Shown piece after piece: positions 8,531-11,575 of a stretch of 35,787 nt of DNA. The notes under the pieces are model-generated. The model saw nothing but the letters and a program-made list of their open reading frames with translations. It was not told where the DNA came from and searched no databases. Each line of letters opens with the position of its first letter. Within the stretch, counting starts at the first letter, position 1. This DNA is from an uncultured Desulfovibrionaceae bacterium (GTDB taxonomy: Bacteria; Desulfobacterota; Desulfovibrionia; Desulfovibrionales; Desulfovibrionaceae): contig CALUZB010000005.1 in assembly GCA_944325195.1 (NCBI GenBank), positions 88,011 to 123,797 of the forward strand. Reading direction: 5' to 3'. Both the position numbers and the translations under genes were made by a program.

Positions 8531-8644
8531 ATGGCAGAAACAAGAAAAAAGCGGGACATACCTGCACAGAATACGAATCAACGGAAAATGGTTCAGTCCG
8601 GGCAGCGTGAGGACGTTATTTTAAGCAAAAGAGTTGAAAGATGA
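8531..8644 (+). CDS. Small basic peptide, translationally coupled to the ParB-like gene
   Basis: A 37-residue frame that fills the gap between the primase and the ParB-like gene. Its stop overlaps the next start (ATGA at 8641-8644), a common sign of translational coupling. The product is rich in Lys/Arg (MAETRKKRDI ... ILSKRVER) with no recognised domain. The ribosome-binding site is weak. It could be a real small protein of the modification cassette or simply a leader that carries ribosomes to the next gene. Confidence 0.45.
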   Translation: MAETRKKRDIPAQNTNQRKMVQSGQREDVILSKRVER

Positions 8645-9429
8645 ATGATTTCGATGTCGAAAAACAAAATCAACAATTTGCTCAAATCAGCAAAACCTTG
8701 TTTGACGGCAAAGCCGAATTGCGCATTGTAAAGCCGGGCTCTCTTGTTTTGCTTGCCCGCAATGCGCGCTATTTCAAAAAAGAAATTTTCCGACAGTTGG
8801 TAAGCAATATCAAAAAAGATTCCCGCCTTTCCAGCGTCCCCCTCTGCTGGGTGAGAGAAGATGGCAAGTTGGAAGTGCTGTCTGGCAACCATCGGGTGAA
8901 AGCGTCCATTGAAGCAGGTTTAGACTACATTCTGGTGTTTGTTGTTACCGAGAAACTTGACCGGGAGCAACAGATTGCAATCCAGCTTTCCCACAATTCC
9001 CTGGTTGGAGAAGACGATCAAAAAATTCTTTCAGAGCTTTGGTCAGAAATGGAAACCCTGGAAGCCAAGCTTTATGCAGGCTTATCCAGTGATACATTGG
9101 CGGAAATAGGAAAAGTTGACCTGCTCACGTTCACAACCCCGGCAGTCGCTACGCGTACCGTCAGCTTTTCTTTTGTCAGCACTGAAGCTGATCGCTTCGA
9201 GCAGGTAATAGACGAATTGGACTTTGCGCCCCAGGGCACAGTGTATCTGGCGCATCTTGCACAATGGGACAGTTTTTTTCAGAACATCTGCGCAATAAAG
9301 GAAAAGTTTGAAATCAAAAGCGCCTCTCTGGCCATACTGAAAATGCTGGAGCTTACAGAGCTTGCACTGGAAGCAGGACTTGGCCGGGGAACAGAAATGA
9401 AAAAGCCGGATGTGAGGGTACAATCATGA
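8641..9429 (+). CDS. ParB/sulfiredoxin-fold protein of a putative DNA-modification cassette
   Basis: A 262-residue protein whose first 130 residues match the ParB/Srx fold: NARYF (41-45), VLSGNHRVKASIEAG (79-93), equivalent to the family's G-x-x-R-x-x-A loop, and IQLSHNSLVGEDD (114-126), like the L-x-x-N-x-x-x-x-E helix of phage ParB proteins. No partner ParA is present, so this is not a partition locus. Stand-alone phage ParB-fold proteins often sit beside DNA methyltransferases and other base-modifying enzymes, where they may act as NTPases or nucleases. The remaining 130 residues are not recognised. It overlaps the next gene by 4 bases (ATGA), so the two are co-translated. Confidence 0.75.
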   Translation: MNDFDVEKQNQQFAQISKTLFDGKAELRIVKPGSLVLLARNARYFKKEIFRQLVSNIKKDSRLSSVPLCWVREDGKLEVLSGNHRVKASIEAGLDYILVFVVTEKLDREQQIAIQLSHNSLVGEDDQKILSELWSEMETLEAKLYAGLSSDTLAEIGKVDLLTFTTPAVATRTVSFSFVSTEADRFEQVIDELDFAPQGTVYLAHLAQWDSFFQNICAIKEKFEIKSASLAILKMLELTELALEAGLGRGTEMKKPDVRVQS

Positions 9430-10775
9430 GCTTTATCGGGGCCATAGCTGCATCTGTCCGCAAAGTATTGGCTGATTATGCTCAGCAGGTCACAACCCCG
9501 ACGTTGATTATCGGGGCGGGCAATTTCACTGTACCGTCAATTTTACGCAGTGTGGGATTCAACGGACGGATTCTTGCCTGCGATGTTTCGCTATACTCTT
9601 CGGCTTTGGGGGCGTATTTAAGCGATCAGGAAATCACTGTTTCAGAAAATAAAGACTGCCCTCCCCAACTGCGCAACCTGCTTGACAATTCAAGCCCGCT
9701 CACGTTGGCGGCTTCCATTGCCCTCATGCTTGACCTGCGCGAGGTTTGGAAATGCAATAATGCTTTCCAGGTTCGTCAGATGGAGAATGCCCGCGAACAG
9801 TGGAAATACCTTATGGACCAGACATGCTTGCGTCTGGAAAAGTTTAAAGAAAATATCGGATCGATTGAGTATCAACCCCGTTGCGGTTTTTCTCTGCTGC
9901 GTGAACATATTGAAAATCCGGATCAAACCGTGTTCGCATTCCCGCCCACATACAAACGGGGATATGAACGACTTGAAAGCCTATTGTCGGCCGCCTGTCA
10001 ATGGCAACCGCCCGTCTATGAAGAAATGACAGACAAAAGCCTAGAGCTTTACGAGCTGATAGCCCGGTTTGGAAGTTATTATGTGGTGCTTGAGAAAGAC
10101 TTACCCGAAGTCTATGCAATACTGGGCGAACCTGTAGCGGTGCTTCCCCGCGGCCTTGAACGTGAAACCTATATTTTAGCCAGACATGCACCGACATATG
10201 TCATTCGTCAAGTCACAAAAAGCGCGCCGGTTCCCCGGATATGGTCACCGACCAGAAAAATTGTCGGAGATGAAGAGCCCAGCCTGGTCTTGCTTTCATC
10301 TCGCCAGACGACCAGGCTGAAGGAGCTGTATATGTCAGCCCGTGTCAACTACACCAGCAATGCTGCGGATCTGATGCTGGGGGTCTGTCTTGACGGTCAG
10401 CTTATCGGCATGGGGGCGATTGTTCCTTCGGCACACGCCTGGAAACTTCCTGAGCCCGGCTTGCAGGCCTATCTTATGGCCGATTTAGCAGTACCCAGCC
10501 AAAACCCCAGATTATCCAAACTGGTGCTTGGCTGTTTGCTTTCCAGTGAGGCCAAACGACTTTTTGATGAAAAAAAACTGGCTCGCCACGAATTTCTTGT
10601 CACCACCGCTTTTTCGCATCACGCCCAAAGCATGAAATATCGCGGCCTGTTCAAGCTCCATTCCCGCATCCCCAAAAATGGAATGAACGCATTGAATTAC
10701 TACTCAAAGTGGGGATCTGACGACTTGAAATCCTCTTTCGACAAATGGCTGTCGAAATACGCTAACATAGCGTAA
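9426..10775 (+). CDS. Methyltransferase-like domain fused to a Mom-like GNAT domain (putative anti-restriction DNA modification)
   Basis: A 449-residue protein with two apparent domains. The N-terminal part resembles a Rossmann methyltransferase: LIIGAGNFTVP (28-37) like the SAM-binding motif, ILACDVS (49-55) with the following acidic residue, and FAFPPTYKRGYE (170-181) where adenine methyltransferases have D/N-P-P-Y/F. The C-terminal part (about 290-430) resembles Mu Mom and other GNAT acyltransferases: LGVCLDGQLIGMGAIVPS, MADLAVPSQNPRLSKLVLG, then EFLVTTAFSHHAQSMKYRGL. Mom modifies adenines so that phage DNA escapes restriction. The substitution of F for D/N in the catalytic motif suggests the first domain may bind DNA or SAM without normal methylation. 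Function is inferred, not shown. Confidence 0.65.
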   Translation: MSFIGAIAASVRKVLADYAQQVTTPTLIIGAGNFTVPSILRSVGFNGRILACDVSLYSSALGAYLSDQEITVSENKDCPPQLRNLLDNSSPLTLAASIALMLDLREVWKCNNAFQVRQMENAREQWKYLMDQTCLRLEKFKENIGSIEYQPRCGFSLLREHIENPDQTVFAFPPTYKRGYERLESLLSAACQWQPPVYEEMTDKSLELYELIARFGSYYVVLEKDLPEVYAILGEPVAVLPRGLERETYILARHAPTYVIRQVTKSAPVPRIWSPTRKIVGDEEPSLVLLSSRQTTRLKELYMSARVNYTSNAADLMLGVCLDGQLIGMGAIVPSAHAWKLPEPGLQAYLMADLAVPSQNPRLSKLVLGCLLSSEAKRLFDEKKLARHEFLVTTAFSHHAQSMKYRGLFKLHSRIPKNGMNALNYYSKWGSDDLKSSFDKWLSKYANIA

Positions 10776-10849: not shown

Positions 10850-11200
10850 ATGAAGGAACTGGAAAAGTTTGTCCAAAGCCAGATCGCCGAACAGTACAGG
10901 GTAATCGATGAGATTTGGAGGCGCCGTGTCAACTATGCGAGTGTAGCTGACTACTACGACAAAGAGACCGTCAAGGAGATCGTCCGCCGTATGCCCAATT
11001 TACTGGTGAAAGGCAAAGGCTGTGCGCTTGACGAGCTTGCGGATGAATACGGATTTGAGTCCACTTGCGATCTGGTGGACTTGTTCGTCAACTATGAAAA
11101 CAAGGCAGTAGCATTTGATCGGCAGCTTTCCCAACTCATCGAAGCGGAGTTCCACCCAAACGCTGAATCCTGCCCCGATATCCACGGTACACTGTTTTAG
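10850..11200 (+). CDS. Hypothetical phage protein, 116 aa
   Basis: Preceded by a strong site (CCGGAGG, 7-8 bases before ATG) and its own likely promoter, so it is probably expressed. The product is charged and mostly helical in appearance, with the patterns VNYASVADYYDKETVKEIVRR in pieces (VNYASVADYY, EIVRRMP) and LDELADEYGFES that suggest a small helix-rich fold, perhaps DNA-binding; no catalytic motif is seen. I do not recognise a family. It lies 18 bases before the DUF488 gene and is likely co-transcribed with it and with the terminase genes. Confidence 0.65.
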   Translation: MKELEKFVQSQIAEQYRVIDEIWRRRVNYASVADYYDKETVKEIVRRMPNLLVKGKGCALDELADEYGFESTCDLVDLFVNYENKAVAFDRQLSQLIEAEFHPNAESCPDIHGTLF

Positions 11201-11218: not shown

Positions 11219-11575
11219 ATGAGAATTTACACGTCATATTTTAATTCCAAGGCCCCGGCCGAACGCAAGGTTTGCATCGCCAAGTCAGCCCGCTTTTTCT
11301 CCGGCCCTCGCGCCAAAGAGTTAGCTCCCTCCAACCCTTGGGCCGGTGGCGATTGGAAACGCGCTTATCTGATCGACCTTGACTCCCGTTTCGGAGCGCT
11401 CGGAATGCTTGATCTCAAGCAATATCTTAGCGCCATACATAATCGAACGCCCAATCCTATTTTGTGCTGCCATGAGGCGAACCCGGAAAACTGTCACCGT
11501 TCCGTGCTCGCCGCGTACATTGAGAAATATCTGGGCATTCCGGTCAGCGAGTGGAGTCCGGGCTGCGAGGATTAA
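11219..11575 (+). CDS. DUF488-family protein
   Basis: A 118-residue protein with the signature of DUF488: a pair of cysteines followed by CHEANPENCHRS (84-95), that is C-x-E-x(3-5)-C-H-R, near the C-terminus, and an N-terminal TSYF strand. The conserved Cys/His/Arg set suggests a nucleic-acid or small-molecule enzyme, but the biochemical role of the family is not established. GGAGG lies upstream of the ATG. It sits between the promoter at 10.8 kb and the terminase genes, only 3 bases before the small terminase start. Confidence 0.8.
   Translation: MRIYTSYFNSKAPAERKVCIAKSARFFSGPRAKELAPSNPWAGGDWKRAYLIDLDSRFGALGMLDLKQYLSAIHNRTPNPILCCHEANPENCHRSVLAAYIEKYLGIPVSEWSPGCED

Follow-up and report, generated by a model that had tools for sequence, protein, structure and literature searches.

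A three-gene phage module, in which a protein with a DAM-like and a GNAT half is accompanied by a ParB-like and a DUF488-type protein, was identified in a 35,787-nucleotide stretch of the genome of an uncultured Desulfovibrionaceae bacterium (contig CALUZB010000005.1, G000:C5:88011-123797; the genome, G000, has 27 contigs). This whole stretch is called the window below. We propose with moderate confidence that the module would decorate a base of phage DNA, likely adenine, with an acyl-type group and so block restriction enzymes; the anatomy of the module and the association of its genes are visible in the sequence, and every catalytic step is one that we infer. The window reads as a contractile-tailed prophage within a bacterial genome, with genes for a P4-type primase-helicase, a zinc-ribbon primase, large terminase, portal, head protease, tail sheath, tape measure and baseplate. 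The cassette has the primase genes on one side and the large terminase gene on the other, in agreement with an earlier reading of this DNA (hereafter the initial annotation), which had placed it early, before the packaging genes. All members are encoded on the plus strand: the ParB/Srx-fold protein (8641..9429, 262 amino acids, phrog_7405), the DAM-like/GNAT protein (9426..10775, 449 amino acids), joined to it by an ATGA overlap, and the DUF488-N3a-type protein (11219..11575, 118 amino acids), a recurrent member that the initial annotation had overlooked.

The 449-amino-acid protein belongs to the Pfam PF22555 (DAM-like-phage1) plus PF22559 (GNAT-phage-like) family, matching the two models with 201.7 and 121.9 bits against gathering cut-offs of 27; the NCBI name is 'putative antirestriction adenine methyltransferase'. 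These entries supply names and domain models, and the partnership with ParB and DUF488 as well as the swap of donor enzymes come from the present analysis. Both Pfam and an AlphaFold2 (AF2) model (pLDDT 93.6, pTM 0.71) make the N-terminal half Dam-like (residues 3-269; 9432..10232) and the C-terminal half GNAT-like (residues 283-445; 10272..10760), so that structure prediction, proposed as a check in the initial annotation, yielded a Dam-like Rossmann fold and a GNAT fold. The two motifs that had been noticed in the methylase-like half are present, GAGNFT (motif I) at residues 30-35 (9513-9530) and the motif IV-like FPPTY at residues 172-176 (9939-9953). The protein has the Dam-like Rossmann fold and the S-adenosylmethionine (SAM) motifs I and II in common with Dam and other D12-class N6-adenine methyltransferases, whereas their catalytic (D/N/S)PP(Y/F/W) is absent from the window protein and a C-terminal GNAT domain is added.

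Alignment with hhalign against 15 D12 methylases (PF02086) revealed that D153...FPPTY of the family falls on D...DPPY of the methylases (P = 0.0039 for the whole alignment and 0.0024 for the domain only, with low probabilities of 9-12 per cent). DPPY is invariant in these 15 methylases, which were drawn from 24 D12 loci chosen by an open frame containing that motif. At the catalytic-Asp position, 346 distinct family members (the 240 proteins listed together with those from the loci that have at least 300 amino acids, including the window and three amidoligase-fused proteins) have F in 260 cases, A in 40, Y in 35, S in 3, D in 2 and other residues in 6; that is, F, A or Y stands there in 335 of 346, and the window protein has F172. 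G32 of SAM motif I is kept in 340 of 345 members and D53 of motif II in 337 of 343. On the GNAT side, residues D353, K365, S402, K404, Y405, R406 and G407 (the SMKYRG core lies at 10629-10646) are kept in at least 338 of 342 members, and 12 of the 16 invariant columns in a 95-sequence alignment fall in this half. The window protein has all of these GNAT core residues, plus SAM motifs I and II. Since the SAM motifs are kept, the Asp position is changed and GNAT columns are invariant, the family appears to retain its SAM site, to have lost the residue for N6-methylation and to be most constrained in its GNAT core. Three D12 adenine-methylase matches were found elsewhere in the host genome, on contigs C17, C23 and C26; in a family search of 59 near relatives, the DAM-like domain was detected in the window's own genome only. 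By eye, one homolog (P0189, 675 amino acids) has an intein-like insert exactly between FPPTY and the next GGYE of the DAM-like domain; inteins tend to sit in active-site motifs. Another protein (P0068, 676 amino acids, ParB + DAM-like + GNAT) was not used as a natural fusion because its joining stretch, also by eye, resembles out-of-frame translation.

The initial annotation had called the C-terminal half a GNAT enzyme of the Mom kind. The GNAT fold was confirmed by Pfam and the model, and the predicted fold resembles that of Mom, the methylcarbamoylase of phage Mu (PF25680; PDB 8bv8), but sequence profiles provide no link to Mom, and by sequence the 449-amino-acid protein does not join that family: the window protein gave no match to PF25680 at E up to 1, in a search whose HMMER filters drop weak matches. 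Unlike Mom, this GNAT is fused to a Dam-like domain and accompanied by ParB and DUF488 partners. At the start of the helix that probably corresponds to the one with the essential Ser124 of Mom, the family keeps R/K-L-x-K, with S or A about evenly at residue 364; Mom S124A is called inactive in a PDB title. A scan of 149 genomes from the same class gave Mom-family matches in 19 (18 above the cut-off) and none in G000. Two homologs (P0079 and P0081) show, by eye, an HNH-endonuclease-like insert within the GNAT half, immediately ahead of its Y..SDLAV strand. Among related proteins in the literature, some jumbo phages have fusions of a Mom-family GNAT with a nuclease (PMC7824862), DefenseFinder calls 'Mom' on prophages of Desulfovibrio piger (PMC12724379), where either true Mom or the present family may be meant, and GNAT, ParB and adenine-methylase domains are reported from polyvalent proteins (PMC5512222).

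The model of the 262-amino-acid protein has the N-terminal nucleotide-binding fold of ParB, which upholds the earlier assignment of a ParB/Srx-fold protein upstream of the 449-amino-acid frame; its SGNHR and QLSHN motifs lie at 8881-8895 and 8983-8997. The best ParB structures cover about residues 18-124 and some (KorB 8qa9, ParB 6t1f) extend to about 163, so our former statement that the match ends at residue 124 was revised and no absence of a DNA-binding region is claimed. Compared with the ParB/Srx superfamily (chromosomal ParB, sulfiredoxin), the N-terminal fold is common, and the helical part past about residue 163 has no ParB match among the structure matches listed. As a class, ParB proteins act as clamps on DNA. 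Of the 19 window open reading frames (ORFs) scanned with PHROGs, none was assigned to a ParA family. The DUF488-type protein of the window scores 21.5 bits with PF22751, below the 27-bit cut-off, and relatives in its cluster reach 41.9 and 42.7 bits, above it. It carries C84-x-E86-x5-C92-H93-R94, of which C84 and C92-H-R are kept in 89 of 90 cluster members; these are the conserved cysteines (C...CHR) of DUF488-N3a. Work by Burroughs and Aravind from 2020 on the rhodanese-phosphatase superfamily is said to be a likely source for parts of the module.

In the viral scan, a single-sequence query gave nothing and an alignment-based query gave matches. One search started from a distant branch collected 916 proteins, and the main branch includes Desulfobacterota, Bacillota, actinobacterial phages and others. 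All three core genes are present in Faecalibacterium phage FP_Brigit, Gordonia phage Clawz and Mycobacterium phage Megabear; in Clawz and Megabear the cassette includes gp29-gp30 and gp70-gp71, respectively. Microbacterium phage ValentiniPuff has the DAM-like/GNAT and ParB genes, with no DUF488 in the 6.4 kb examined. FP_Brigit has a SAM synthetase gene (L184, 1963-3141) about 1.8 kb upstream of the cassette.

A second form of the module is fused to an amidoligase. The top BFVD match of the whole model of the 449-amino-acid protein is 'amidoligase enzyme' (E = 2.6e-23 over 458 columns), and the GNAT half matches phrog_2443 with E = 3.3e-4 for the window protein and down to 4e-9 in distant relatives. 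In three loci from Bacteroidota genomes (L158, L159 and L188), one protein combines Amidoligase_2 and PF22559 with a DAM-like domain, which matches PF22556 in L158 and L188 and, at a score below cut-off, PF22555 in L159; a ParB-like gene adjoins. Amidoligase-type viral loci number 36 among the 78 kept, or 39 including L158, L159 and L161. A ParB-like gene adjoins in 33 of these 39, and a DUF488 gene lies within 5 kb in 34 (28 and 29 of 34 entries, respectively, when identical proteins are merged, one entry, L327, being a fragment that lacks the amidoligase). A racemase-like gene lies close to 16 of the 39 loci and an Octopine_DH gene near another 16, never together, while a D-Ala-D-Ala-ligase-type ATP-grasp gene is near 21; with one representative each, Octopine_DH and Dala_Dala_lig_C were above the Pfam cut-off and Ala_racemase_N just below. 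A small helix-turn-helix (HTH)-like gene near 31 of the 39, below Pfam cut-offs, is probably a small terminase.

The 33 distinct fused proteins all carry the amidoligase residues FG.E.E and T.EFR, with GGE.N almost invariant; the GNAT KYRG is invariant in all 32 that extend that far, and the Dam signatures GxGNFT, CDxSLY and FPPTY were not recognizable by eye. The phrog_2443 fusion (Amidoligase_2 + PF22556 DAM-like-phage2 + PF22559) therefore has the same GNAT core and the same ParB and DUF488 partners as the window protein, and differs from it in the added amidoligase and in the Dam SAM signatures. Because the fused form keeps ParB, DUF488 and GNAT while the enzymes vary, these three would form the constant core and the donor-making side would change. 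SAM motifs that are kept in the main branch and unrecognizable beside the amidoligase hint that the amidoligase replaces a SAM-dependent step. Altogether, the fused form suggests that the donor varies between phages and can be amino-acid-like. The study of amidoligases by Iyer et al. from 2009 is reportedly another likely source for parts of the module. Near the amidoligase-type cassette of L159 (2075-3763) there are a PAPS-reductase gene and a radical-SAM gene, and a ThiF-type gene cluster occurs in 9 of the 39 loci. For Clostridium prophages, the phrog 2443 amidoligase is listed together with a gamma-glutamyl cyclotransferase (PMC11318856).

In the function proposed here, the Dam-like domain, with Phe for the catalytic Asp, would grip duplex DNA and turn out a base without ordinary N6 methylation, serving either DNA recognition alone, as the initial annotation had suggested, or also SAM use for another transfer. 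The GNAT domain, which has 12 of the 16 invariant columns, would move a group from a coenzyme A-like or aminoacyl donor onto the base. The ParB-like protein may bind nucleotide and hold or load the enzyme on DNA, and the DUF488 protein, whose family cysteines are kept, might prepare or trim the donor, the step with least support. A wider scheme, which we put forward only tentatively, is a modular DNA-decoration platform in phages of many phyla, with a constant DAM-like/GNAT writer, ParB-like clamp and DUF488 enzyme and with swappable donor-making enzymes. In its main branch, the Dam-like domain would still use SAM, though not for plain N6 methylation; it would perhaps add an aminocarboxypropyl or carboxymethyl group as the target of acylation by the GNAT. 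In its second branch, known from Bacteroidota genomes and from uncultivated phages, the group would resemble an amino acid or a peptide and be the product of an amidoligase, a D-Ala-D-Ala-ligase-type enzyme and either an opine dehydrogenase or an alanine-racemase-like enzyme.

Several observations weigh against base acylation by a three-gene module. Among 61 loci with full flanks, the ParB gene is not nearby in 18 and DUF488 in 25. Profile-profile comparison with 12 Mom proteins (Mu Mom and 11 encoded by members of the host's class) yields an alignment of 19-21 columns with a probability of 0.5-0.9 per cent; in structure comparison Mom ties with SbzI, and Foldseek places 11 chains above Mom, ten of them GNATs. 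GNAT-fold enzymes act on many substrates, and the sequence data single out no particular base and no particular group. The window copy itself has C at residue 153, the motif III Asp (C in 10 of 346 members), and M329, A331 and A400 against K, D and P in its branch, so it may be altered. We had taken the loss of K329 and D331 (117 of 120 each among the first 120 homologs) as a sign that this copy is dead, a view that was withdrawn because in the wider set these residues are confined to the nearer, mostly Desulfobacterota branch.

Three other explanations were considered. The protein could be an ordinary DNA adenine methyltransferase acting against restriction, as the NCBI name says, with the GNAT half as an accessory. 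We regard this as unlikely, given that the position of the catalytic Asp, part of a DPPY invariant in the 15 D12 methylases, holds D in 2 and S in 3 of 346 members, against 335 with F, A or Y, that 12 of 16 invariant columns lie in the GNAT half, and that the amidoligase-fused form has an intact GNAT core beside Dam signatures that the eye does not recognize. To local marking or processing of DNA for packaging, for example at a terminase cutting site, instead of whole-genome protection, we assign a similarly low probability. It would fit the large-terminase-type cluster found within 5 kb downstream in 27 of the 61 full-flank loci, the probable small terminase near 31 of 39 amidoligase-type loci, the terminase genes that come after the cassette in FP_Brigit and ValentiniPuff, and the clamp nature of ParB proteins; however, no large terminase was detected downstream in the other 34 loci, where clustering may miss divergent ones, Clawz has no annotated terminase among the 24 features listed, and amino-acid-type donor enzymes fit bulk chemistry better than site marking.

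It is also rather improbable that the target of acylation by the GNAT is a protein, from host or phage, with the Dam-like and ParB-like parts only placing the enzyme on DNA. GNATs commonly modify proteins, and protein N-acetyltransferases are among the top GNAT matches of Foldseek; phage Rac is reported to be a GNAT acting on RNA polymerase (PMC7824862; PMC7552054). Against this, the Dam fold and the dedicated ParB-like partner point to a DNA substrate, and Mom is among the closest folds.

The initial annotation had interpreted the locus as a DNA-hypermodification cassette of three frames coupled by ATGA overlaps. The domains, the ParB partner and the Mom-like GNAT fold agree with this interpretation, as does the overlap between the ParB-like and the 449-amino-acid frames; a sequence link to Mom and the 37-amino-acid member were not confirmed. 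The 37-amino-acid ORF (8531-8644) gave no family match in Pfam/PHROGs-type scans and no convincing relative in the collected loci (best tblastn E = 1.1). In eight relatives (L012, L013, L014, L021, L022, L024, L025 and L087), a window-type primase-cluster gene ends at most 4 nt from the ParB start and leaves no space for such an ORF, which is therefore probably due to chance and was excluded from the module. Downstream of the cassette, a 116-amino-acid protein (10850..11200, plus strand) had no clear family match in the family scans. Its cluster (cluster 17) occurs in 12 loci overall; among 138 target loci it lies within 7 genes of the cassette in 10, a count that has the window twice (as W and as L001). 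Membership of this protein in the module is uncertain.

The domains are already named in Pfam and some relatives have a predicted name at NCBI, and the kind of system, phage DNA hypermodification, is known. No description or test of the module was recognized among the matches listed in the literature searched (titles and abstract openings), and an earlier description is possible. Hypermodification of their DNA is among the principal means by which phages escape restriction, and new enzymes come from it. Database names credit some members of this family with a methylation of which their active site seems incapable. The core genes occur in cultured phages (three with all three genes and a fourth with two), which makes the function accessible through purified phage DNA. 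If the wider scheme is true, DNA whose bases bear amino-acid or opine side chains would represent a new class of hypermodification.
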